Origin: Chloroflexota bacterium
Lineage (GTDB): Bacteria; Chloroflexota; Anaerolineae; Aggregatilineales; Ch27
Assembly: GCA_019873685.1 (NCBI GenBank)
Contig: JAIOAT010000015.1
Coordinates: 1 to 64,000, forward strand
Direction: 5' to 3'
Length of the DNA stretch: 64,000 nucleotides
In this document: piece by piece, positions 18,832-46,841 of the stretch
Position numbering within the stretch: position 1 is the stretch's first letter
Layout of the letters: every line of letters starts with the position of its first letter
The notes under the pieces: model-generated
Database searches by the model: none
Told to the model about the DNA's origin: nothing
The model's input: the letters and a program-made list of their open reading frames with translations, nothing else
Translations under genes and position numbers: made by a program

Positions 18832-20868
18832 GTGCAGCAGAACGATCGAAAATGGCTCATGCAGTTAGCGGGGCCGCTGGCGCTGATAATCGCGCTGGGG
18901 CTGCTGGTTCTGGCGCTCGCGCCGGGCAGCGCCAGCCTGACCGCCGACGACGAAGGGGCGCAGGTCCACCTGAGCGCCGACCGACGCTGGACGATCCTGC
19001 CCGGCGGTTGCGTCACGGTCAGCTGGGCGGTCTCAGGCGTGCGCGAGGTTTACCTCGACGGGGAGGGCGTGACCGGCGAAGGGTCCCGCCTCATGTGCAC
19101 CGCCGAGGAGGGCGAGGCCATCGTTCCCATCCTACGGGTCGTCACCTCCAGCGGCGCAGAACGCTTCTATGCCCTGCATATCCCGGCGCTGACCGGGCGC
19201 GGCGAATTCTGGCTGGCGCTGATGGCGGTCGGGCTGCTGGCAGCGGTGTATACCCGGCGGCGCAGACTGATCAGCAGTGCATTGCTGCTGGCGGCGGCGG
19301 GGATCGGCGTCTGGCTGCTCTGGCAGTTCATCAACCCCGCACCGCTGGTGATCCGGACAGCCGAACGCGGCGGTTTCGTCTCCTTCCGCGCGACGCCGAT
19401 CCGCCCGCCCGACGATTGCACAACGCTGGCCTGGACGGTAGAGGGCATCCAGCAGGTGCGGCTCAACGGGGAGGCCGTGATCGGTCAGGGGGAAAAACGT
19501 CTGTGCGGGCCAGCCGTCCACGACCTGCGCCTGACGGTGACCTTCCGCGATGGCAGCCAGCGCGACTATCGCTTTCCGCCCAACCGGCTGCTGTATCCGG
19601 CGGGCCTGCTGGCGCTGTGTGGCGCGGTGCTGCTGGTGGCGCTGGTGGCTGATGTCTGGCGCGGGGCGCGAGTCCGGCTGGCGCTTCGCCTGAGCCGTTA
19701 CGATGCAGTGGGGCTGATCGGCGCAGTTGGGGTGACGGCGCTGATCTACGGCTACCTGCTCAGCCAGGCGGTGCAGACCACTGATGATTATTGGGTGCAT
19801 CTGAACTTTGCGGCGATCCTGCAGGAAAGTGGGACAACGCCACTGCCGCACTTCCTGTTCCAGGCGCTGGTAGCGGCTCTCGGCAGAATCATCCCGGGCG
19901 GCAATCTCACTGTTGCGGGTGTAATCGTTGGCGCAGCAGCTTACGCCAGCATCACCGCGCTCACTTATATCCTGCTGAGGCAGGCGCTAGGCCAGACAGA
20001 GGGGTGGCCGCAGGCGGGTCTGCTCGCCGGGCTGGCACTGGCCGTCTGCGTGATGGATGTGGCGAGCCTGCCCGTACCAGGCTACGACAACCACAGCTAC
20101 CGTCTGGCATACGTTTCCCTGCAGCCACTGCACAATCCGACCTATCCGCTGATGCGGCCGCTTGCGTTGCTGCAGTTCATTGTGGCACTGCGCGTGCTAT
20201 CCGATCGAAGAGAAACGGCTGCTGTCTGGCCAGCGGTGGTGGTCTCAGTCTTGAGCACTTGGGCCAAGCCAAACTATGCAATTGTCCTCCTGCCAGCGCT
20301 TGCGCTACTAGCGGCTGCTCGCTGGTTGCGCGGGAAGTGGATAGATTGGGGATTGCTGCTGGGCGGGCTGATCTTGCCGATGGTAGCCGTTCTGGGCTGG
20401 CAGTTCTACTTCAACCATGGCTCCGGCCAGGCGGGGAGCAGTTTCACTTTTGAGCCATTCGCCGTGTTTCGCCTGTTTGCCCCGCATCCCTGGGCGCTAT
20501 GGCTGGTCATGTTCACCCTGTGTTCAGCGTTGTTCCCGCTGGTGGTAACCGTGCTATACAGAACACAGGCCACCTGCGACGGTGGGTTAACGCTTGGCTG
20601 GCTGGGCTTTGCCATCGCCATGGCTTACTACCTGCTCTTCGCGGAACAAGGCGCGCCTTCCGCTGCAAACTTCCGCTGGGGCGCGCAGATCGCCCTGTTC
20701 ATCCTCTGCGTTGCCTCGCTGGTGTTCTTCATTCAGCGAATACGCGAAGCCGGGTGGAACAGACGCTCCCGCATCGGCGCAGCACTGTTCGCCTGGCATG
20801 TCCTCAGCGGCGTCTACGCTTACGCCGCTTACCTGGCCTGGGTCTGGAGCTGGATTCGCCCGACCTGA
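18832..20868 (+). CDS. Large polytopic membrane protein with two Ig-like extracytoplasmic domains
   Basis: 678 residues from a GTG at 18832; the ATG at 18859 is an alternative, and any earlier start would run through the DUF4342-like gene. Two repeats, each a membrane helix plus a domain with the pattern C-x-T-x-x-W-x-V-x-G-[VI]-x-x-V-x-L-x-G (around residues 57-75 and 198-216), are followed by about ten helices with loops bearing VQTTDDYWVHLNFA and LSTWAKPNYAI. The second half resembles glycosyltransferase-C-like integral enzymes in layout, but I see no decisive motif. Function unknown. GC drops somewhat after about 20150. Confidence 0.75.
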   Translation: MQQNDRKWLMQLAGPLALIIALGLLVLALAPGSASLTADDEGAQVHLSADRRWTILPGGCVTVSWAVSGVREVYLDGEGVTGEGSRLMCTAEEGEAIVPILRVVTSSGAERFYALHIPALTGRGEFWLALMAVGLLAAVYTRRRRLISSALLLAAAGIGVWLLWQFINPAPLVIRTAERGGFVSFRATPIRPPDDCTTLAWTVEGIQQVRLNGEAVIGQGEKRLCGPAVHDLRLTVTFRDGSQRDYRFPPNRLLYPAGLLALCGAVLLVALVADVWRGARVRLALRLSRYDAVGLIGAVGVTALIYGYLLSQAVQTTDDYWVHLNFAAILQESGTTPLPHFLFQALVAALGRIIPGGNLTVAGVIVGAAAYASITALTYILLRQALGQTEGWPQAGLLAGLALAVCVMDVASLPVPGYDNHSYRLAYVSLQPLHNPTYPLMRPLALLQFIVALRVLSDRRETAAVWPAVVVSVLSTWAKPNYAIVLLPALALLAAARWLRGKWIDWGLLLGGLILPMVAVLGWQFYFNHGSGQAGSSFTFEPFAVFRLFAPHPWALWLVMFTLCSALFPLVVTVLYRTQATCDGGLTLGWLGFAIAMAYYLLFAEQGAPSAANFRWGAQIALFILCVASLVFFIQRIREAGWNRRSRIGAALFAWHVLSGVYAYAAYLAWVWSWIRPT

Positions 20869-20922
20869 GAGATGCAGGGGCGCAGCATGCTGCGCCTCTA
20901 CCCCCTCCCCTCGCTTCACTGC

Positions 20923-20952
20923 TTGACATCGCCTGCCGGACCATGCCATACT
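20923..20952 (+). promoter_or_regulatory. Promoter of the fadR operon
   Basis: A perfect -35 TTGACA, 18 bases, then CATACT (4 of 6). The predicted start falls at about 20959, the first base of the FadR-like palindrome. Confidence 0.7.
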
Positions 20953-20958
20953 GAGATC

Positions 20959-20982
20959 AACTGGTCAGACCACTGACCAGTT
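20959..20982 (+). promoter_or_regulatory. fadR operator: FadR-type operator palindrome
   Basis: A perfect inverted repeat, AACTGGTCAG-N4-CTGACCAGTT, with an inner palindrome TGGTC-A-GACCA. The left half plus the inner part closely matches the known E. coli FadR site, AACTGGTCnGACCnGTT. The overlapping halves could hold two dimers. Its position from about +1 to +24 of the fadR transcript fits repression by roadblock, that is, autoregulation of the whole operon. Confidence 0.8.
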
Positions 20983-21005
20983 ACTGGCCATGAAGCGAGG
21001 TGAAC

Positions 21006-21749
21006 ATGCCCTGGTCCCCGCCCAAGCGCCCGGTTGACCATGTCGAAGAGGCTTTGATCTCGGCTATCCTCAACGGCGACTTCCCGCCCGGCAGCGCCTT
21101 GCCCGCCGAGCGCGAACTGGCCGTCCTGCTGGGGGTCACCCGCCCCACCCTGCGCGAAGTCCTTCGCCGCCTGGAACGCGATGGCTGGATCACCATCCAG
21201 CAGGGTAAGCCAACGCTGGTCAATGCCTTCTGGTGGGAAGGCGGCCTGAATGTGATCAGCGGTATCGTGCGTTACAGCCGCACCCTGCCGGACGATTTCG
21301 TCAGCAACCTGCTGCAGGTGCGGCTTGACCTGGCGCCTTCCTACACCCGCCTGGCGGTGATCCACAATGCACCCGGCGTAGCGGCGCTGCTGGCGGAGGC
21401 CGCTAGCCTGCCGGAAGCGCCTCCAGCTTTCGCCGCCTATGACTGGCGCCTGCAGCACAGCCTGACCATTGCTTCCCGCAATCCTGTCTACGCCATGATT
21501 CTGAATGGCTTCGCCGGTTTCTATGAAAGTCTGGCCCGCCACTACTTCACCACAGCGGAGGCCCGGAGCGTTTCCCGCGCCTACTACGCGGCGCTCCTGG
21601 AAGCCGCCCGCGCTGGCGACGCCCCCCGCGCTGAGACGGTCACCCGCGAGGTGATGACCCGCAGTATTGCCCTGTGGGCGCAGGCACAGCAGACCCTGAT
21701 CCATCAGGCTGACGGGGAAGGATGGCGGTGGAAGGAGGAACAACCATGA
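21006..21749 (+). CDS. fadR: FadR-family acyl-CoA-responsive regulator
   Basis: 247 residues from the ATG at 21006 (GAGG 5 bases upstream); a GTG two codons earlier is possible. E. coli FadR is 239 residues. The N-terminal winged helix (about residues 9-75) has FPPGSALPAERELAVLLGVT and TLREVLRRLERDGW, and the linker GKPTLVNAFWW matches the GKPTkVNnFW of true FadR rather than generic GntR proteins. The helical C-terminal domain keeps NPVYAMILNGFAGFYESLAR and HYFTTAEARS. FadR represses fatty-acid degradation genes and is released by long-chain acyl-CoA. It is the first gene of an operon with lipid-glycerol genes and has a matching operator. Confidence 0.88.
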   Translation: MPWSPPKRPVDHVEEALISAILNGDFPPGSALPAERELAVLLGVTRPTLREVLRRLERDGWITIQQGKPTLVNAFWWEGGLNVISGIVRYSRTLPDDFVSNLLQVRLDLAPSYTRLAVIHNAPGVAALLAEAASLPEAPPAFAAYDWRLQHSLTIASRNPVYAMILNGFAGFYESLARHYFTTAEARSVSRAYYAALLEAARAGDAPRAETVTREVMTRSIALWAQAQQTLIHQADGEGWRWKEEQP

Positions 21750-23338
21750 GGCGCTGGAATGGCTGGGGCGACGACACCCAGGACTATCCCCTGCCGGAAG
21801 GGGCGGCCCGCTTCCTGGAGGAGGCGCTGGGGTCGGGGACGCCGCCGGTTGATGCGGCGCTGGAAGACGTGCTGGCCACGGTCCCATCCTCGCGCCTGCT
21901 GCCGCATCCGCTGATCGTCACCGATGCCGAGACGCGCCTGCGCCATGCCCGCGGTCAGAGCTTCCCGGACTGGGTGGCGCTGCGCAGCGGGCGGGCCGGG
22001 CCGCTGCCGGACGGCGTGGCCTTCCCCACAACAGGCGAGGAGGTGCGCGACCTGCTGCGCTATGCGCGTGAAACCGGGGCGCGGGTGATCCCCTACGGCG
22101 GTGGGACAAGCGTTGTCGGCCACATCAACCCGCCGGGCGGTAATGCGCCGGTGCTGACCCTCAGCCTGGCGCGGATGAACCGCCTGGAAAGCCTGGAGGA
22201 GGCCAGCGGCCTGGCCCGTTTCGGCGCGGGCGTCACCGGCCCTGACCTGGAGGCGCAACTCCGCGCCCGCGGCTTCACCCTCGGCCACTACCCGCAGTCA
22301 TTCGAGTTCTCCACTCTGGGCGGCTGGATTGCCACACGCTCCACCGGCCAGCAGTCGCTCGGCTACGGGCGGATCGAGCGGCTGTTTTCCGGCGGCGTGG
22401 TGGAAACGCCGACCGGCACGTTGATCCTGCCGGACTTCCCGGCGTCGGCGGCGGGGCCGGATCTGCGCGAGATCGTGCTGGGATCGGAAGGGCGGCTGGG
22501 CGTGATCACACAGGCTAGCGTGCGCGCGTCCCGTCTGCCACAGGTCGAAGCGTTTCACGGCGTCTTCCTGCCGGATTGGGAACGCGGGCGGGAAGCCGTG
22601 CGCGCCATCGCCGGGGCCGGGCTGCCGCTCTCTATGCTGCGTCTGAGCACACCGGGAGAGACGGTTACTACCCTGGCTCTGGCCGGGCATGATCGCCTGA
22701 TCGGGGCGCTGGAGCGCATGCTGGCGCTGCGCGGAGTCAAAGATGAGAAGTGCATGTTGATCATCGGCGTCACCGGACGGGAAAAGGTCGCCAGGGCCGC
22801 GCTGAGGGAGACGCTGGGCCTGTGTAAAGAGCATGGCGGCGTCCATGTCGGCCAGACGTTCGGCAAACAGTGGCACAAATCGCGCTTCCGCACACCGTAC
22901 CTGCGCAATACGCTCTGGGAACGCGGCTATGGCGTCGATACACTGGAAACAGCCGCACCCTGGGAGCGCGTCCCGGCGCTGGTGGCGGCAATCGAGAACG
23001 CACTGCGCTCAGCGCTGGCCGACATAGATGAGCGGGTGCATGTCTTCACCCACCTTTCACATGTCTACCCGCACGGCTCCAGCGTCTACACCACGTACAT
23101 CTTCCGTCTGGCCGCCGACCCGGAGGAAAACCTGCATCGCTGGCGGACGCTCAAAGGCCGGGCGAGCGAGGCGATCGTGGCCGGCGGCGGCACAATCAGC
23201 CACCAGCACGGCGTTGGCGTCGATCATGCGCCCTATCTGGCAGCGGAAAAAGGGGCGCTGGGCCTGGAGGCGATCCGGGCACTCTGCGCCTGCTTCGACC
23301 CGGACGGCCTGCTCAATCCGGGCAAGCTGGTGGAATGA
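21746..23338 (+). CDS. Alkyldihydroxyacetonephosphate synthase-like FAD protein
   Basis: 530 residues from the ATG at 21746, which overlaps the fadR stop by 4 bases (ATGA) and has AGGAGG 7 bases upstream. AGPS swaps the acyl chain of acyl-DHAP for a fatty alcohol, forming the ether bond of ether lipids. Seen: RWNGWGD at the N-terminus, HPLIVTDAETRLRHARGQSF, the FAD-binding PYGGGTSVVGH, FSTLGGWIATRSTGQQS, and C-terminal SHQHGVGVDHAPYL and DPDGLLNPGKL. The histidine triplet of eukaryotic AGPS reads HQH here. D-lactate or glycolate oxidase-like activity is the alternative, but the N-terminal motifs are AGPS-specific. Confidence 0.85.
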   Translation: MRRWNGWGDDTQDYPLPEGAARFLEEALGSGTPPVDAALEDVLATVPSSRLLPHPLIVTDAETRLRHARGQSFPDWVALRSGRAGPLPDGVAFPTTGEEVRDLLRYARETGARVIPYGGGTSVVGHINPPGGNAPVLTLSLARMNRLESLEEASGLARFGAGVTGPDLEAQLRARGFTLGHYPQSFEFSTLGGWIATRSTGQQSLGYGRIERLFSGGVVETPTGTLILPDFPASAAGPDLREIVLGSEGRLGVITQASVRASRLPQVEAFHGVFLPDWERGREAVRAIAGAGLPLSMLRLSTPGETVTTLALAGHDRLIGALERMLALRGVKDEKCMLIIGVTGREKVARAALRETLGLCKEHGGVHVGQTFGKQWHKSRFRTPYLRNTLWERGYGVDTLETAAPWERVPALVAAIENALRSALADIDERVHVFTHLSHVYPHGSSVYTTYIFRLAADPEENLHRWRTLKGRASEAIVAGGGTISHQHGVGVDHAPYLAAEKGALGLEAIRALCACFDPDGLLNPGKLVE

Positions 23339-23376
23339 CGGGCGCAGGCAGGCGAAGTCAATAAGGGGAAACCACA

Positions 23377-25122
23377 GTGATGATCTGGGGCAAAGACTGG
23401 CGCGATAGCGTCTGGGAGCAACTTGGAACAGAGCGGGACATCATCGTCATCGGCGGCGGGATCACCGGTGCAGGCATCCTGCGGGAGGCGGCCCGGGCAG
23501 GGCTGCGCGTCCTGCTGGTGGAAGCGCGGGACTTCGCCTGGGGGACAAGCAGCCGCTCATCCAAACTGGTGCATGGCGGGTTGCGTTACCTGGCCCAGGG
23601 CAAGCTGCGCCTGACGCTGGAATCCGTACGCGAACGCGAGCACCTGCTGGAGGACGGCCCCGGCCTGATCGACCCGCTGGGCTTCCTGCTGGCGACACAC
23701 AAAGGCGACCGTCCCGGTCGCTGGACGTACAAGGCCGGCCTCTCCCTTTACGACTTGATGGCGCTGCAGTGGACTCACCGCCGCTACCGCCCGGAAGACT
23801 TCCGGATGCTGGCCCCGCGCATCACGCCTGACCGGCTGGAGGGCGGCTTCCGCTATGGCGACGCCCAGACGGATGACGCCCGGCTGGTGCTGCGTCTGAT
23901 CCGGGAGGCCGTGGCTGACGGCGGCCTGGCGATCAACTACGTAGCAGCGATCGGCCTGATCCGCGAGGATGGCGCGGTAAGGGGCGTCCGCCTGCGGGAT
24001 GCGGTCACGGGCCGCGAAGCCGAGGCCCGCGCCCGCGTCGTGATCAACGCCACCGGCGCCTGGGCCGATCACCTGCGGGCACAGGTCGGCGGCGAGGCGC
24101 GAATCCGGCCCCTGCGCGGCAGCCATCTCATCATCCCCGCCTGGCGGTTGCCGCTGGCCCAGGCCGTCAGCTTCCTGCATCCCATCGATCACCGCCCGGT
24201 CTTTCTGTTCCCCTGGGAGGGGGCAACGCTGGTCGGTACAACCGACCTCGACCATGACGCCCCCCTGGATGAGGAACCGCGCATCAGCCCGGAAGAAGTC
24301 GCCTACCTGATGGCCGCCATCCAGCACCAGTTCCCTGCCTGTAACATCACCCTGGACGACGTGATCGCCACCTTTGCCGGCGTGCGTCCGGTGATCGGGA
24401 CGGGCAAGGACGACCCATCCAAAGAATCACGCGAGCATGTCGTCTGGCAGGAAGATGGCCTGCTGACCGTCACCGGCGGTAAGCTGACCACCTTCCGCCT
24501 GATCGCCCTGGATGCGCTGCGAGCCGTACGCGATCGCCTGCCGGAACTGGCCGACCTCAGCGCCGATCACCCTGTGCTGGCGGCGATCGACGTAGACCTG
24601 CCTGGCGCGGAGAATCTGCCACCGGCAACCCGGCGGCGGTTGCTGGGGCGCTACGGCGCGGACGCTCCGGCCCTGGCGGCAGCGGCGGAGCCAGGCGAAT
24701 TGGAGCCAATCCCCGGCACGCGCACCCTGTGGGCGGAATTGCGCTGGGCGGCGCGGGCAGAAGGTGTGGTTCACCTGGACGACCTGCTGCTGCGTCGTGT
24801 GCGGCTCGGCCTGCTCCTGCCGGAAGGCGGGGTTGGGCAGATGGCCCGCATCCGCGCCATCTGCCAGCCAGAACTGGGCTGGGATGACGCCCGCTGGGAG
24901 TCCGAGGAGGCCGCCTACCGGGCGCTATGGCGGGCTGCTTACAGCCTGCCGGAGCGCGCCCTGATCCCGGACTGGCAGACGCTGCTGCTGGACGCACGCG
25001 CGGCGCGGCTGGCCCGCCCTTATAGCTTCCGGCGGCCGCTGTTCCTGCTGGCCGGGCTAACGGCGCTGGCGCTGTTGTCGCGGTGGCGCCGTCGTGTGGG
25101 CCGGGATAGCGCGGTAGTATAG
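23377..25122 (+). CDS. glpD: Glycerol-3-phosphate dehydrogenase (FAD), GlpD-like, with C-terminal membrane helix
   Basis: 581 residues from a GTG with AAGGGG 8 bases upstream (the next codon is ATG). GlpD oxidises glycerol 3-phosphate to DHAP and gives electrons to quinone. Seen: IVIGGGITGAG (FAD Rossmann), SSRSSKLVHGGLRYL, VINATGAWAD, FLFPWEGATLVGTTD, VTGGKLTTFR and a C-terminal DUF-like cap. A hydrophobic helix at about 553-570 followed by RWRRR is an unusual tail that could anchor the enzyme. DHAP is the AGPS precursor, which ties it to the gene before. Confidence 0.92.
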   Translation: MMIWGKDWRDSVWEQLGTERDIIVIGGGITGAGILREAARAGLRVLLVEARDFAWGTSSRSSKLVHGGLRYLAQGKLRLTLESVREREHLLEDGPGLIDPLGFLLATHKGDRPGRWTYKAGLSLYDLMALQWTHRRYRPEDFRMLAPRITPDRLEGGFRYGDAQTDDARLVLRLIREAVADGGLAINYVAAIGLIREDGAVRGVRLRDAVTGREAEARARVVINATGAWADHLRAQVGGEARIRPLRGSHLIIPAWRLPLAQAVSFLHPIDHRPVFLFPWEGATLVGTTDLDHDAPLDEEPRISPEEVAYLMAAIQHQFPACNITLDDVIATFAGVRPVIGTGKDDPSKESREHVVWQEDGLLTVTGGKLTTFRLIALDALRAVRDRLPELADLSADHPVLAAIDVDLPGAENLPPATRRRLLGRYGADAPALAAAAEPGELEPIPGTRTLWAELRWAARAEGVVHLDDLLLRRVRLGLLLPEGGVGQMARIRAICQPELGWDDARWESEEAAYRALWRAAYSLPERALIPDWQTLLLDARAARLARPYSFRRPLFLLAGLTALALLSRWRRRVGRDSAVV

Positions 25123-25179
25123 TCATCAGCGAAGTCAGCGTGGAGATGGGTGCGGTGACCTGCTAAAGCGAGGGCCTCT

Positions 25180-26754
25180 ATGGCGGGTGAAGTGCTCCTG
25201 GCGATTGACAACGGTACGCAGAGCGTACGCGCGCTGCTCTTTGATCTGGAGGGGCGGTTGCTGGGCAAAGCCCGCGTGCCCATCAAGCCTTATGTCGCGC
25301 CGCAGCCCGGCTGGGCGGAGCAGGACCCGGAGTACTTCTGGCAGGCGCTATGCCAGGCCACGCGCCAGTTATTCGCCGAGACTGCCATTCGGCCTGAAGC
25401 CGTGGCGGGGGTAACCCTGACCACCCAGCGCTCGACGCTGATCAACGTGGACCGGGCCGGTAAGCCCCTGCGCCCGGCCATCGTCTGGCTGGATCAGCGC
25501 CGCACGGAGGGTCTACCGCCGGTTGGCGGGCTATGGGGCCTGGCCTTCCGGCTGGTGGGCATGTCGGATACAGTCGCTTACCTGCAGGCTGAGGCCGAGG
25601 CTAACTGGATCAGGACACAGCAACCGGAAGTCTGGGCCGCGACACACAAATACCTGTTCCTTTCCGGCTACCTGACTTACCGCCTGACCGGGCGGTTTGT
25701 CGATTCGGTTGGCTGCCAGGTCGGCTACGTTCCCTTTGATTACAAGCGCCTGACCTGGGCGCGCAGCTGGGACTGGAAATGGCAGGCCGTGCCGCTGGAC
25801 CCGGCTATCCTGCCTGACCTGGTTCCCCCGGCGGGCGTGCTGGGCCAGATCACGGCGGAAGCGGCGGCGGCCACCGGCCTGCCGGAGGGATTGCCCCTGA
25901 TTGCAGCGGCGGCAGACAAAGCCTGCGAGGTGATCGGCTCCGGCTGCCTGGAACCGCACATCGGTTGCCTGAGCTATGGCACGACAGCCACGATCAACAC
26001 CACCCACCGCCGCTATATCGAGGTCATCCCCCTCATCCCGCCGTATCCTTCCGCTGTGCCGGGCCGCTATAGCCTGGAGATCCAGATCTATCGCGGCTAC
26101 TGGATGGTCAGCTGGTTCAAAGAGGAATTCGGCCTGCGGGAGATTCTGCTGGCGGAGGAGCAGGGCGTCGAACCGGAAACTTTCTTTGATGATCTGGTGC
26201 GGGCCGCGCCGCCGGGATCACAGGGGCTGGTCCTGCAACCGTTCTGGTCGCCCGGCCTGCGCGTGCCGGGGCCGGAGGCGCGCGGGGCAATTATTGGCTT
26301 CAACGCTGCCCATACCCGCGCCCATGTTTACCGGGCCATCCTGGAAGGGTTGGCTTATGCCCTGCGCGAGGGCAAGGAGCGCACGGAACGGCGCAGCGGC
26401 GTCGCTGTGACCGAGTTGCGCGTCTCCGGCGGCGGTTCACAGAGCGACGCCGCCATGCAGCTCACCGCCGATGTCTTTGGCCTGCCGACCGCCCGCCCGC
26501 ATACTTATGAAACTTCCGGACTGGGCGCGGCTATCGACGCGGCGGTCGGGCTGGGCCTGCACCCGGATTTTGAGACGGCCGTCCGGGCCATGACACGCAA
26601 GGGCCGCGTCTTTGAGCCAGACGCGGCCACGCACACCATCTACAACGAATTGTACGAACGTGTCTACCGCCCGCTGTACGGACGGCTGCGCCCGCTGTAC
26701 GAGGCATTACAGACCATGGCCGCACTCCACAACGGGCGCAGCCCGGCGGTCTAG
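25180..26754 (+). CDS. FGGY-family kinase, glycerol- or polyol-type
   Basis: 524 residues, ATG with GAGG 6 bases upstream. The N-terminal ASKHA phosphate loop [39 protein letters not shown] and AIVWLDQR are FGGY features; the C-terminal domain has [12 protein letters not shown] and [16 protein letters not shown]. In glycerol kinase the corresponding sites differ, so the substrate may be glycerol, dihydroxyacetone or another polyol. Its place behind GlpD suggests it feeds glycerol 3-phosphate into the operon. A weak -10 (TATAGT at 25118) could give it additional expression. Confidence 0.87.
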
Positions 26755-26770
26755 GCCGCCGGAACTGCGA

Positions 26771-28372
26771 TCAGTGCAGGTTGCTGTACACCTCCTGCAC
26801 TTCAGCTGCGTCCAGCGCACCGCTGTACAGCTGCACGTTCCTGATTACGCCGGAGAACGCGCCGGTTCGCTTGCCGCCCTGGCGCAGCGCACCAAGGATG
26901 GTATTGCCTCGCGCTGACCATGGCGCCCAGTCCTCAAGGGCAACCGTTGCCTGTGGCTGGCCGTCCACATACAGCGTCGCCTGCTTGGTCTGCCCGTCCC
27001 ACACACCCACCAGATGCACCCACTGATCCGCCGCCGGGACGAGCGGCGCAGCCGCGCTGATCGACATATTGCCGAACGGCGCAAACAGCGTGAAGGAGAA
27101 CCCTTCGCCGGTATATTCCAGGACGAAGTTGCTGGAGATGCCGCCATCCTGGCTGAGGATCGGCGCAGGCGTGGCGGGATCAGCCACACGCACCTCCGCC
27201 GCAACACTGAAGCTGCCCAGCGTGTCGAGCCAGCTCATGCCAGTGTCGATGAAACTTTGCTGCAGCTCAAATACACCCTCAGGCGGCGCTTCCAGCGAGG
27301 CGGCCAGGATATCCCCGTCCGCGGCGACCAGCCCGCACAGCTCACCGGCAGGCAGCGGGATCGTCGCCCCGGCAGGCACCGGACGCCCGAAGTTCGGCGT
27401 GCCATCCTCGTTCCAGGTGAAAGGCTGGGCGAAGATCGCCCGATCCTCCCAGCCGTCGCCCGGCTTGGTCTTGGCGTGGTAGAACAGCCAGCTTTCGCTG
27501 CCATCCGGGGAAAGCACGGGCGTCGAATTATGCCCCGGCCCGTAGACGTTGCCGCTTTCATCGGAGTAACCGCTGAAGACCGGCCCGACCTTCGTCCAGG
27601 AAGCCGCGTCCAGCGGATCGTCCCCGGTGAGCACCAGCATGCCCAGCTTGTAGGCCCGTGACCAGCTGGCGTCCGCCGAATAGACGATCGACAGCGTGCC
27701 GTTGTGGATGAACGCCTCCGGCCCTTCCTGGATGGCAGCAACCGACCGCTCCCAGGGCTGATCCGGCTCGGAAATCAGACGGCGCGGCCCGCTGATCGTC
27801 AGCGGATCGCTCATCGGCGCGATGTAGAGATTCTGCGGGAAGTCTCCTTCATCGCCGGGCCAGCCCGACCACACCATGTACAGCTGCCCTTCATACTCAA
27901 AGACCGTGCCATCGATCGCCCATTTGTCGGTCGTAGGGTCGTAGACTTTACCTTTCATCGTCCAGGAACCCTGCGGATCGGCGGTATCGGCCTGCAGGAC
28001 GTACATGCGGTGGGTGTAGTTGGCGCCCGGTCGCTCGGTAGCCGCCACGTAGATGTACCATCCGCCATCCAGGTAGACCAGCTCCGGCGCCCACAGGTCG
28101 TAGCTGTAGGGTTGCCCGCGCGGCGGGGTGTAAATGAACACGGGTTCCGCCGTCGCCAGGCCGGTCAGCGTGGGCGACTTGGCGATGGAAAGACCGCTGG
28201 CGCTCGACTGCACCAGGTAGTAGTAGCCGTCATGCTGCGCCACAGAGGGGTCCTGGCCCGCGCTGATCAGGGGATTGGTGAAGACACAGGTGATCGCTGC
28301 GTGGGAGGGAGTCGCTGGCAGCAGCAAGCCCAGACCGCACAGAAGCAGGAATACAGGCAGATAAGGTTTCAT
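26771..28372 (-). CDS. Secreted GH43-like glycosidase with C-terminal LamG domain
   Basis: 533 residues from the ATG at 28372 (an earlier in-frame GTG adds eight residues). A signal peptide ends near SHAAI. The five-bladed propeller of GH43 is marked by its three acids: Asp in SAGQDPSV, Asp in WAIDGTVFEYEG and Glu in QEGPEAFIHNG. These enzymes cut arabinan, xylan or galactan side chains. The C-terminal 150 residues form a LamG/concanavalin-like domain (WVHLVGVWDGQTKQATLYVDG) that probably binds polysaccharide. It converges with the FGGY gene and is transcribed alone. Confidence 0.88.
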   Translation of the reverse strand: MKPYLPVFLLLCGLGLLLPATPSHAAITCVFTNPLISAGQDPSVAQHDGYYYLVQSSASGLSIAKSPTLTGLATAEPVFIYTPPRGQPYSYDLWAPELVYLDGGWYIYVAATERPGANYTHRMYVLQADTADPQGSWTMKGKVYDPTTDKWAIDGTVFEYEGQLYMVWSGWPGDEGDFPQNLYIAPMSDPLTISGPRRLISEPDQPWERSVAAIQEGPEAFIHNGTLSIVYSADASWSRAYKLGMLVLTGDDPLDAASWTKVGPVFSGYSDESGNVYGPGHNSTPVLSPDGSESWLFYHAKTKPGDGWEDRAIFAQPFTWNEDGTPNFGRPVPAGATIPLPAGELCGLVAADGDILAASLEAPPEGVFELQQSFIDTGMSWLDTLGSFSVAAEVRVADPATPAPILSQDGGISSNFVLEYTGEGFSFTLFAPFGNMSISAAAPLVPAADQWVHLVGVWDGQTKQATLYVDGQPQATVALEDWAPWSARGNTILGALRQGGKRTGAFSGVIRNVQLYSGALDAAEVQEVYSNLH

Positions 28373-43993: not shown

Positions 43994-44035
43994 TGTTTCT
44001 GGGGCGAGGGCTGAAATACCGCAGCAAAAGGAGAC

Positions 44036-45739
44036 TCACTCCGGAACAACGGTCTGCAGCTCCCGCATCAGTGTGCGGCGGCGGCGATACTTTTCGCGCA
44101 GTTCTTTGACAATCTCCCTCACACGCCCTTCCTGGCCCATGCCCTGCATCCGCTGCAGATATTCGCGGATTTGCACGTAGGCGGAATGGTTCACCTGGTT
44201 GGCCGCCAGTCCTGCGATTTGCTTCTCATACTCCCGGCCGACTTCAACCGGAAAATGCGGTTCCAGCAGCTCCAGATATCTGTCGAGACTATGGCATCCG
44301 GTGCTCTGTACCCACGCAAGCAGCTGAGGCCACATCTCCTCACGCACATAAATCTCGGCAAGCAGTGTCGGTAGACACTGTGGACGCTGGCTTTGCTCAA
44401 TCACGGTGCTACGAAATGACGGCCACGTCTCGGGTGCTATGCGTTGCTTGAGAAGATCGAAATAGGAAAACTCTCCGGTGGTCAGGAAAAGAACTGTGGC
44501 CAGTCGGATGATCTCCTCTTGTTCGCCTTCCTGAATGGCGATCTTCAGGAGAACATGGTTGAAGTAAGTGTGGTTGCTCAGCCGATCCACTGGCCTTTTC
44601 AATACCCATTCCCGGCTCACCTTCTTGGCCTCGTCCAGACACCCCGCGCCGAGATAGTATTCAACAAGCCGCCGCCTGAAATCCGGTGATTCAGCGCGGT
44701 CCAACATGAACTGCTCTGCCGCAGCGGAGCCATCCAGCCGCTCGATGACTGCCAGTTTGATCTCGTCGGCAGATTTGCGCCGGTAATACCCAAGGTTAGA
44801 ACCCGCGTATCCATGTGGCAGCTTCTCAGCCATCTGGTCAAGTGCACTGAAAACTCGCTGGCGTTCATCCGGCGTAACCACCATATCTGCGGCAAGCCGG
44901 ATAAGCTCCCACTCCCAGTCCCAACCACTCAACTGATCAGAAGGCGCCTTCTGCAGGCAGTAGTCGAAGAGCGCGGCACGATCCCGCACCGGTAGGCTCG
45001 GATAGACTGCTTTCAGACCTGACAGAGCGTAGCTGATACAACCACTCAGATCGCCACTGGAGTCATCCGCATACCCCAGCGCCGGGATCACCGTCTCAAG
45101 CACAGCCTGAAAGATATCCATTGCCCGGTCAGGCTCTTTGCCAACAGCCTTGTAGCCTTCCGCCAGGATTTTCCAAATGCGTTTGCCTGCTTCTATAGCG
45201 CCCTGGTAATCGATAAAACCCCGCCTGTGCTGGCCGCTGTCCAATGCCTGTTTGACCATCTCGACATAGGCTGCTTTGCCCTGCCCGACTGCCTCGAAGC
45301 GCAACAGCAACAGGTTAGTCAGGTGTCGATCGGCCTGAGCCAGCCCGAGAATCACGTCGAGAAGTTCCTCACGGGAGACATGAGCCAGCGCTTCCTGAAG
45401 CGTCTGGTGGCGTGTCGTGCGGCCTTTAGGTTGTTCTTCCAGCACTGGCACTGAATCCTCACGGTTGGCCGATCCCGCGGCCAGCGCATACAGCACAGCC
45501 GTCACATGCTTGCATACCGGTCCCCATTCATACGGGCAGGTGCAGGTGCTCCGCAATTCGCCATCAGCATATTGCAGGACCTCAACGTCGTAGAGCTCGG
45601 CTCCTACAACCCGGGCATTCCAGACACCGGTTGCGCTCTCTCGCAAATCCATTACTTGGTGGTTCTCAAAACACTCCTTACCCCGCTTGAGAATAACGGC
45701 ATCAATCTCGCTCTCGAAATTGGCCAACGTGAGTGACAT
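44036..45739 (-). CDS. SWIM zinc-finger protein with long helical repeat region
   Basis: 567 residues. The SWIM motif CTCPYEWGPVCKH (C-x-C-xn-C-x-H, about residues 65-77) follows a short N-terminal region starting TLANFESEIDAVILKRGKECFE. The remaining 450 residues are alpha-helical and TPR-like, with no catalytic motif. SWIM proteins bind nucleic acid or protein; many bacterial examples lie beside SNF2 helicases, but none is here. By eye the gene is clearly lower in GC (near 52-54%) than its neighbours, which suggests transfer. Its start has a weak ribosome site. Confidence 0.85.
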   Translation of the reverse strand: MSLTLANFESEIDAVILKRGKECFENHQVMDLRESATGVWNARVVGAELYDVEVLQYADGELRSTCTCPYEWGPVCKHVTAVLYALAAGSANREDSVPVLEEQPKGRTTRHQTLQEALAHVSREELLDVILGLAQADRHLTNLLLLRFEAVGQGKAAYVEMVKQALDSGQHRRGFIDYQGAIEAGKRIWKILAEGYKAVGKEPDRAMDIFQAVLETVIPALGYADDSSGDLSGCISYALSGLKAVYPSLPVRDRAALFDYCLQKAPSDQLSGWDWEWELIRLAADMVVTPDERQRVFSALDQMAEKLPHGYAGSNLGYYRRKSADEIKLAVIERLDGSAAAEQFMLDRAESPDFRRRLVEYYLGAGCLDEAKKVSREWVLKRPVDRLSNHTYFNHVLLKIAIQEGEQEEIIRLATVLFLTTGEFSYFDLLKQRIAPETWPSFRSTVIEQSQRPQCLPTLLAEIYVREEMWPQLLAWVQSTGCHSLDRYLELLEPHFPVEVGREYEKQIAGLAANQVNHSAYVQIREYLQRMQGMGQEGRVREIVKELREKYRRRRTLMRELQTVVPE

Positions 45740-45809
45740 ATTGAGCGTGCCCTTGCACTAACTTTTGACGACGGCTTCCATCATCACTGTACACCAGACT
45801 CAGCGCAGC

Positions 45810-45844
45810 AAAAAAAGCCGCCGGGATACCCATGAACCCGGCGG
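45810..45844 (-). terminator. Terminator of the epimerase gene
   Basis: On the minus strand an 8-bp stem (CCGCCGGG at 45818-45825 with CCCGGCGG at 45837-45844) is followed by seven T. It lies 25 bases past the stop. Confidence 0.9.
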
Positions 45845-45869
45845 AGGCGCATGCTCCAGTTCAATCCCC

Positions 45870-46841
45870 CTACTCCTGATGATCGCGCATGTAGTCTACG
45901 ATCTGGTCGATCGTCTGGTCGAGATCAGTGGTCGGCTCCCAGCCCACATAGCGCTTGATCTTGCGGATGTCCGGCACGCGGCGGCGCATGTCCTCAAAGC
46001 CGGGCTTGTACGCCTGCTCGTAGGGCACCAGCTGAATCTCCGAACTGCTGCCCGTCCGGGCGATCACCCGCCTGGCCAGGTCCAGGATCGTGATCTCCTC
46101 GTTGTTGCCAATGTTGAAGACCTCGCCCACCGCCTCCGGGCACTGGCTCAGGCGGTGGATGGCGTCCACCACATCCTTGACGTTGCAGAAGCAGCGCGTC
46201 TGCTGGCCGTCGCCGAAGACCTGCAGCGGCTCGTTCCTGAGCGCCCAGCCGACAAAGCGCGGCAGCACCATGCCGTAATGCCCCATCTGGCGCGGGCCGA
46301 CCGTGTTGAACAGCCGGAAGGGGATCACCGGGAGGCCGATCTCCTGGTAGTAGGCCAGGCCCAGGAATTCGTCCAGGGCCTTGCTGGCCGCATAGCTCCA
46401 GCGACTCTTGGTCGTCGGGCCAAGCAGACGGTCGTCATCCTCGCTGAAAGGCACCTTGACACCTTTGCCATAGACTTCGCTGGTGCTGGCGATCAGCACC
46501 TTGCGCCGGTAGCGGCGAGCCGTACGCAGCACGATCTGCGTGCCATCCACGTTGACCTCGATCGTATCGATCGGGTGGGAAACGATGGAAAACACGCCTA
46601 CCGCCGCGGCCAGATGGAAGATGACGTCGCATTCGCTGACCAGCCGGTCGAGCACGGTCAGGTTGCGGATGTCCTCAATGGCGTAGCGAAAGCGCGGGTG
46701 GCCTTCCAGGTGGGCGATGTTCTCAAAGCGACCGGTGGAAAGGTTGTCGATGATGGTGACGTCATCGCCCAGGGAGAGCAGGTGTTCAGCCAGATGGCTG
46801 CCAATGAACCCGGCCCCGCCCGTGATCAGCGCACGCGTCAT
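45870..46841 (-). CDS. NAD-dependent sugar-nucleotide epimerase/dehydratase
   Basis: 323 residues, ATG with GAGG 7 bases upstream. An extended short-chain dehydrogenase: ITGGAGFIGSHL binds NAD, STSEVYG carries the catalytic Thr/Ser, and YAASK is the YxxxK active site. FRLFNTVGPRQ and QTRCFCNVKDVVDAI follow the pattern of UDP-glucose 4-epimerase and UDP-glucuronate decarboxylase. It makes activated sugars for surface polysaccharide; several glycosyltransferases lie in the window, but none is adjacent. The exact product is not decidable. Confidence 0.88.
   Translation of the reverse strand: MTRALITGGAGFIGSHLAEHLLSLGDDVTIIDNLSTGRFENIAHLEGHPRFRYAIEDIRNLTVLDRLVSECDVIFHLAAAVGVFSIVSHPIDTIEVNVDGTQIVLRTARRYRRKVLIASTSEVYGKGVKVPFSEDDDRLLGPTTKSRWSYAASKALDEFLGLAYYQEIGLPVIPFRLFNTVGPRQMGHYGMVLPRFVGWALRNEPLQVFGDGQQTRCFCNVKDVVDAIHRLSQCPEAVGEVFNIGNNEEITILDLARRVIARTGSSSEIQLVPYEQAYKPGFEDMRRRVPDIRKIKRYVGWEPTTDLDQTIDQIVDYMRDHQE

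Follow-up and report, generated by a model that had tools for sequence, protein, structure and literature searches.

The counterpart described so far of the gene set analyzed here is the PA3026-PA3024 cluster of Pseudomonas aeruginosa, which according to Kotecka et al. 2021 encodes an FAD oxidoreductase, a glycerol-3-phosphate (G3P) dehydrogenase and a carbohydrate kinase and is activated, along with a phospholipase C, by the AraC-type regulator GliR (PA3027) (PMC8151288). That paper presents an in silico route from glycerol to alkylglycerone phosphate, reports that no growth phenotype was found and places the cluster in few strains. For AGPS, a mechanism has been described in which a flavin-N5 adduct of dihydroxyacetone phosphate (DHAP) is formed, one chain is released and an incoming alcohol attacks, the ether oxygen stemming from the alcohol (PMC3509576). 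With respect to the opposite direction, a 2021 review named AGMO as the sole enzyme known to degrade alkylglycerols (PMC7911779). Here, we analyzed a locus consisting of fadR and genes for an AGPS-like flavoprotein, a GlpD-like dehydrogenase and an FGGY kinase. It lies in a stretch of 64,000 nucleotides (the window; contig JAIOAT010000015.1, positions 1 to 64,000) from a Chloroflexota bacterium, represented by a 4.1-Mb metagenome-assembled genome (MAG) of the Anaerolineae type. We give about even chances to the reading that this operon is a dedicated glyceryl-ether pathway running towards breakdown. The features of the locus are the following:

20923..20952, + strand: promoter-like site TTGACA-N18-CATACT with extended TG (10/12 matches to the sigma-70 pattern)
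20959..20982, + strand: FadR-type operator AACTGGTCAGACCACTGACCAGTT, composed of a TGGTCAGACCA box and an extra ACCA half-site (conservation and genome search)
21006..21749, + strand: FadR, GntR family with FadR_C effector domain, dedicated local regulator (domain and profile searches, alignment)
21746..23338, + strand: AGPS-like VAO-fold flavoprotein of the HQHGVG subtype, proposed alkyl-DHAP cleaving enzyme (sequence, fold, tree)
23380..25122, + strand: GlpD-like FAD dehydrogenase, proposed alkyl-glycerol-3-phosphate dehydrogenase (domain, profile and motif comparison)
25180..26754, + strand: FGGY kinase from a subfamily other than that of GlpK, putative alkylglycerol kinase (domain, profile and residue comparison)

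An open reading frame (ORF) check together with domain and profile searches confirmed the arrangement of the original prediction, with all four genes in one direction and the ATG of the flavoprotein gene at 21746 overlapping the fadR stop codon (21747-21749) by four bases (ATGA). The gaps between the three enzyme genes, hereafter the trio, are 41 bases (AGPS-like to GlpD-like) and 57 bases (GlpD-like to kinase).

In the proposed pathway, the FGGY kinase would phosphorylate 1-O-alkylglycerol to alkyl-G3P, and the GlpD-like enzyme would oxidize the sn-2 hydroxyl of this compound, giving 1-alkyl-DHAP. The AGPS-like flavoenzyme would then go through the half-reactions of AGPS towards release, in which the flavin-N5-DHAP adduct forms, the alkyl alcohol leaves and water attacks. 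DHAP would enter glycolysis and the fatty alcohol would be oxidized. Read this way, kinase, dehydrogenase and flavoenzyme are three consecutive steps without a gap, whereas synthesis would also require a DHAP acyltransferase and a source of fatty alcohol, both missing from the trio. A Pfam tally of 123 flanking proteins yielded no conserved lipid-synthesis neighbor, only short-chain dehydrogenases being enriched (5/123), and the 25 commonest families among these proteins, each with at least two members, included neither an acyltransferase nor a fatty-acyl reductase. Because the trio is gap-free for breakdown and synthetic partners are not conserved nearby, we favor breakdown over synthesis.

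The original prediction had proposed the latter, with kinase and GlpD supplying DHAP, the AGPS-like enzyme installing the ether bond and FadR coupling the process to fatty-acid supply. In this reading, the acyl-DHAP would come from an unlinked acyltransferase. The clear AGPS fold and the conserved catalytic Tyr and Arg residues agree with this proposal, as does the small contribution of a Myxococcus AGPS to ether lipids (PMC9131029). A Black Sea metagenome survey likewise read Chloroflexota AGPS homologues as ether-lipid potential (PMC11868695), and synthesis had been suggested for P. aeruginosa by Kotecka et al. 2021 (PMC8151288). We nevertheless regard it as unlikely for the locus described here. 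Unlike MXAN_1676-1674 (PMC9131029), it has no acyltransferase or fatty-acyl reductase conserved nearby. Moreover, DHAP requires no dedicated kinase and dehydrogenase, and the genome possesses a canonical GlpK as well as a GlpA-like protein, while the trio kinase lacks Glu84 and Phe270 (see below), so that the postulated DHAP supply was not supported. The HQH instead of HHH motif, the separate clade of the flavoprotein and the coexistence of an animal-type AGPS in six genomes also speak against synthesis.

The assignment of the flavoprotein as AGPS-like, in contrast, was borne out. Its best solved relative was Dictyostelium ADPS (E 2.6e-71, next family 8.4e-24), and its AlphaFold model matched mammalian AGPS with a Z-score of 35.9 over 506 residues, compared to about 28.5 for D-lactate dehydrogenases, with which the alignment started only at residue 49. 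The AGPS match was better than the alternatives by about 100 bits or more and included the AGPS-only N-terminal part (residues 3-48). The N-terminal motif WNGWG is common to the flavoprotein, Dictyostelium and mammalian AGPS, and MRRWNGWGD was invariant in the alignment. Tyr578, R419 and R515 of the guinea pig enzyme correspond to Y448, R299 and R387 of the window protein, all of which were invariant; we take Arg419 and Arg515 to be substrate residues. Since these three residues are invariant, the covalent chemistry of AGPS can presumably be kept in the flavoprotein. A catalytic role has been reported for the tyrosine (Tyr508 in Dictyostelium; PMC3509576).

Three main groups (trio-type, type ii and animal-type) emerged in a tree built from about 75 AGPS-like proteins, with the trio-type proteins in a separate clade (support 1.0). 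All 50 readable trio-type proteins carry HQHG, and HHHG (HHH 615-617 in guinea pig) is present in all 18 readable others. Trio-type and animal-type AGPS coexist in six genomes, the animal-type copies there being 43-46% identical to the guinea pig enzyme. This coexistence and the separate HQHG clade are a further reason for favoring breakdown. The type ii proteins (seven loci) have HHHG, are about 40% identical to the window protein and are mostly encoded beside a GlpD-like gene, with no trio kinase within about 6 kb. The animal-type proteins of Anaerolineae (eleven loci) also have HHHG and are 42-46% identical to guinea pig AGPS; where examined, their genes adjoin amine-oxidase-like or PhyH genes, and neither FAR nor GNPAT occurred among the neighbors scanned.

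FGGY and GlpD pairs also act in polyol breakdown, e.g., of erythritol. The flavoprotein might act as oxidase or dehydrogenase on a hydroxy acid or on some other 1-O-substituted glycerol phosphate, and the trio might degrade a non-lipid polyol or a glycerol conjugate. The fold shared with D-lactate dehydrogenases and a kinase staying below the cut-off of every NCBIfam equivalog are in line with such a function. We consider it rather unlikely, since AGPS is the best match of the flavoprotein by the margin given above, N-terminal part included, the AGPS-specific residues are invariant, and both the FadR regulator and the phospholipase C in the same regulon of Pseudomonas point to lipids.

The GlpD-like protein consists of DAO and DAO_C domains, is related to a solved G3P dehydrogenase (E 4e-74) and retains the GVRP and GGKLT motifs of the GlpD type. 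Its NCBIfam equivalog scores were under their cut-offs and thus do not point to a particular substrate. A C-terminal hydrophobic stretch of this protein, PLFLLAGLTALALLSRW (window 25030-25085), could be a membrane anchor.

The trio kinase scored 164 bits against TIGR01311 (cut-off 590), and no NCBIfam equivalog reached its cut-off. About 40 members of its subfamily have the motifs TTQR[GSA]T, WLDQRR, DKACE and SYGTTATI in common. The glycerol kinase signature comprises Arg83, Glu84, Tyr135, Asp245 and Phe270 (PMC3245297), of which Glu84 hydrogen-bonds glycerol and Phe270 contacts the carbon backbone (PMC3245297, PMC2680290). Throughout these trio kinases Glu84 is replaced by Gly, Ser, Ala or Thr and Phe270 by Thr, while Arg83 and Asp245 are retained and Tyr135 is mostly retained. 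The loss of Glu84 and Phe270 is as expected if the substrate were a larger, O-substituted glycerol. Sequence searches, which were used for all genome-wide tests on the host genome, identified a true GlpK on contig 23, at 764 bits against a cut-off of 498, along with a GlpA-like protein on contig 82, which scored 504 bits over a truncated stretch (cut-off 553). Because of these two proteins, glycerol itself is apparently handled elsewhere in the genome and trio kinase and GlpD are extra. The kinase lacking two signature residues in a genome with a true GlpK again favors breakdown of glyceryl ethers.

These data also bear on the simplest explanation, a plain glycerol or G3P route recycling lipid backbones with the AGPS-like gene as an accessory. 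The retained GlpD-type catalytic motifs would suit it, and some carriers outside Pseudomonas are without another glpD or glpK, as reported by Kotecka et al. (PMC8151288). It is unlikely, however, as Glu84 and Phe270 are lost across the trio-kinase subfamily, GlpK is present in the host genome, and almost every locus has GlpD after AGPS while the kinase may be missing.

For the glyceryl-ether pathway, we propose that a local FadR acting on a single operator would repress the operon until a lipid-derived effector, either acyl-CoA or a pathway intermediate, appears. FadR is a true member of its family, as originally predicted, with a GntR helix-turn-helix domain (PF00392) and a FadR_C domain (PF07840, the latter with E 4e-39). 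It reached 219 bits with NF003444 (cut-off 189) and stayed below the cut-off of TIGR02812. In the 100 genomes of the class in which FadR was counted, all 13 copies are encoded directly 5′ of an AGPS-like gene, and none occurred in the 78 genomes without such a gene (Fisher p 7e-11, an optimistic value since the genomes are related). FadR is thus a dedicated local switch of a single operon.

We compared 16 aligned homologues at the residue positions given for E. coli FadR (PMC4259882). The DNA-contact positions R35, T44, R45, T47 and R49 were unchanged in 16/16, Thr46 was replaced by Pro in all of them, and position 65 was variable, mostly Gln and sometimes His. Gly216, Ser219 and Trp223 were reported to be critical for acyl-CoA binding in the E. 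coli protein, and its G216E variant is a repressor that oleate fails to relieve (PMC4259882). In the homologues, Trp223 and the acyl-CoA-site residue Arg105 were retained and Ser219 was present in 15/16, but Gly216 was Met in every one. Because of this exchange, and despite the retained Ser219, Trp223 and Arg105, the effector is uncertain and may be acyl-CoA or something else. Of the original prediction, the FadR-family protein is thus supported, together with a FadR-type operator, whereas Met at position 216 leaves the assumed acyl-CoA control unproven.

The operator, which the original prediction did not mention, has the pattern TGGT-N3-ACCA-N3-ACCA (24 bp), i.e., a FadR box plus an additional half-site; the E. 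coli FadR consensus is a TGGTCNGACCA-type box. With at least 17/23 matches it was found 5′ of fadR in 38/44 relatives, and none of 880 shuffled stretches scored equally. The full operator is single-copy in the host genome when up to three mismatches are allowed. A genome-wide FadR regulon was not apparent from exact CTGGTCNGACCA matches, as the other sites, in two places (contigs C26 and C29), fall within predicted ORFs. The promoter-like site is the sole sigma-70-like match within 20850-26850, where 0.8 are expected by chance. Such a match alone is thin evidence, to which its place 7 bases 5′ of the operator adds weight. These findings support the view that the operon carries a putative FadR-type operator just downstream of a promoter-like site.

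In the class, about 65 of 298 genomes have an AGPS-like gene at least 50% identical to that of the window. GlpD adjoins this gene in 29 of the 30 best loci and FadR lies 5′ in most; since a simple script was used to call the ORFs of relatives, neighbor counts are approximate. The order fadR-agps-glpD recurs across many families of this class, with protein identities of roughly 45-94%, and agps-glpD-FGGY was also found in other phyla. Owing to this recurrence the four-gene arrangement is not due to chance. Public relatives of the locus are mostly labelled Anaerolineae or Chloroflexota. Named loci at 55-70% identity belong to Chloroflexota, Burkholderiales (Janthinobacterium, Massilia, Duganella, Undibacterium), Marinobacter, Pseudomonas, Saccharospirillum, Archangium, MAGs labelled Bacillota or Acidobacteria, and others, although MAG labels outside Chloroflexota may reflect binning errors. 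Seven FadR-AGPS loci occur in MAGs labelled Bacillota, Acidobacteria or Holophagales, by transfer or mis-binning. In many beta- and gammaproteobacterial loci, a divergent AraC-type gene takes the place of fadR while agps-glpD-FGGY persists, which indicates that the three enzymes form the unit, with an exchangeable regulator.

Side evidence for breakdown came from two neighbors. One is the phospholipase C in the GliR regulon (PMC8151288). The other is a YhhN gene located directly 3′ of the trio kinase in two genomes (L070:13759-14553 in G193 and L190:7585-8292 in G031, where the kinase-YhhN pair lies apart from the AGPS locus). YhhN represents the lysoplasmalogenase family, whose activity was shown in M. 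tuberculosis (PMC9052158). A YhhN gene is present in 49/65 trio-positive and 126/233 other genomes (p 0.003, without correction for kinship, which inflates such association tests). As a constant trio partner, YhhN was rejected in view of its adjacency in just two genomes.

Several points weigh against the breakdown pathway. The YhhN linkage is confined to two genomes of one family, and genome-wide searches (E up to 1e-100) found no trio kinase in many genomes with fadR-agps-glpD, chiefly of family f40. The kinase is hence not obligatory, and in kinase-less genomes the substrate could be pre-phosphorylated or the pathway could be different; the genes examined 3′ of kinase-less loci were unrelated and offered no substitute. 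To our knowledge, there is no case of an AGPS with water as acceptor, and we infer each enzymatic step of the breakdown. Deletion of the P. aeruginosa operon caused no growth phenotype, although the accessible text does not name alkylglycerols among the sources tested (PMC8151288). In family f40, eight genomes have the trio-type AGPS-like and GlpD genes, most of them with fadR, and no trio kinase.

Around the locus, the kinase gene is followed by a convergent GH43 gene, whose end lies 16 bases past it. Farther away, the GC content falls to 0.568 at window positions 44001-46000, compared to about 0.65 elsewhere, with a GC skew of -0.11.

Overall, the original interpretation was partly supported. 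In the kind of neighborhood survey that it suggested, AGPS-like genes are recurrently combined with fadR, including every fadR copy counted above. A description of FadR together with the AGPS-GlpD-kinase trio was not found in the searchable literature; the trio and the ether-lipid reading had been published in 2021 for P. aeruginosa (PMC8151288). Our additions are thus the FadR version, its operator and the distribution across many lineages, while both the set of genes and their reading as a synthetic route were already known. For bacterial alkylglycerol breakdown by such genes, no report was found in the open-access literature. Somewhat more tentatively than for the single operon, and with less than even confidence, we suggest that bacteria may widely cleave glyceryl ethers independently of oxygen by reversed AGPS-type covalent flavin chemistry, the Anaerolineae version being under a FadR recruited as single-operon switch. 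If true, the reverse action of an AGPS homologue would account for ether-lipid recycling without oxygen, and AGPS homologues alone would be unusable as metagenome markers of ether-lipid producers, a use already made of them. The conserved trio also offers an orphan P. aeruginosa operon a testable function, and FadR provides a case of a fatty-acid regulator confined to one operon.

Compared with known systems, the regulator shares with gammaproteobacterial FadR the GntR and FadR_C domains, the invariant DNA-contact residues and the TGGTCNGACCA-type box. It differs in having one local target instead of the fad/fab regulon and in carrying Pro for Thr46 and Met for Gly216. The flavoprotein shares with AGPS/ADPS (EC 2.5.1.26) the full-length fold, the WNGWG motif, the catalytic Tyr and the equivalents of Arg419 and Arg515. 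It has HQHGVG instead of HHHGVG, is only about 28-32% identical to the animal and slime-mould enzymes, forms a separate clade and is accompanied by a kinase and GlpD rather than by an acyltransferase and a reductase. PA3026-PA3024 has the same three enzymes in the same order, and the Pseudomonas AGPS orthologues are 59-60% identical to that of the window. Two Pseudomonas loci (L129 and L136), compared in place of PA3026 itself, show this trio order together with a divergent AraC gene. The P. aeruginosa cluster has the divergent AraC-type activator GliR where the window has fadR, and there a YegS-type lipid kinase follows and the route was drawn as synthesis (PMC8151288). MXAN_1676-1674 of Myxococcus xanthus also places a bacterial AGPS homologue within an operon of three genes, but there it is joined by a FAR1-GNPAT fusion and a protein resembling a reductase, a synthetic set of which none is present in the trio (PMC9131029). 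With AGMO, finally, the proposed pathway would share the net purpose of cleaving the glyceryl ether bond; AGMO is a tetrahydrobiopterin-dependent monooxygenase, whereas the trio route would need no oxygen.

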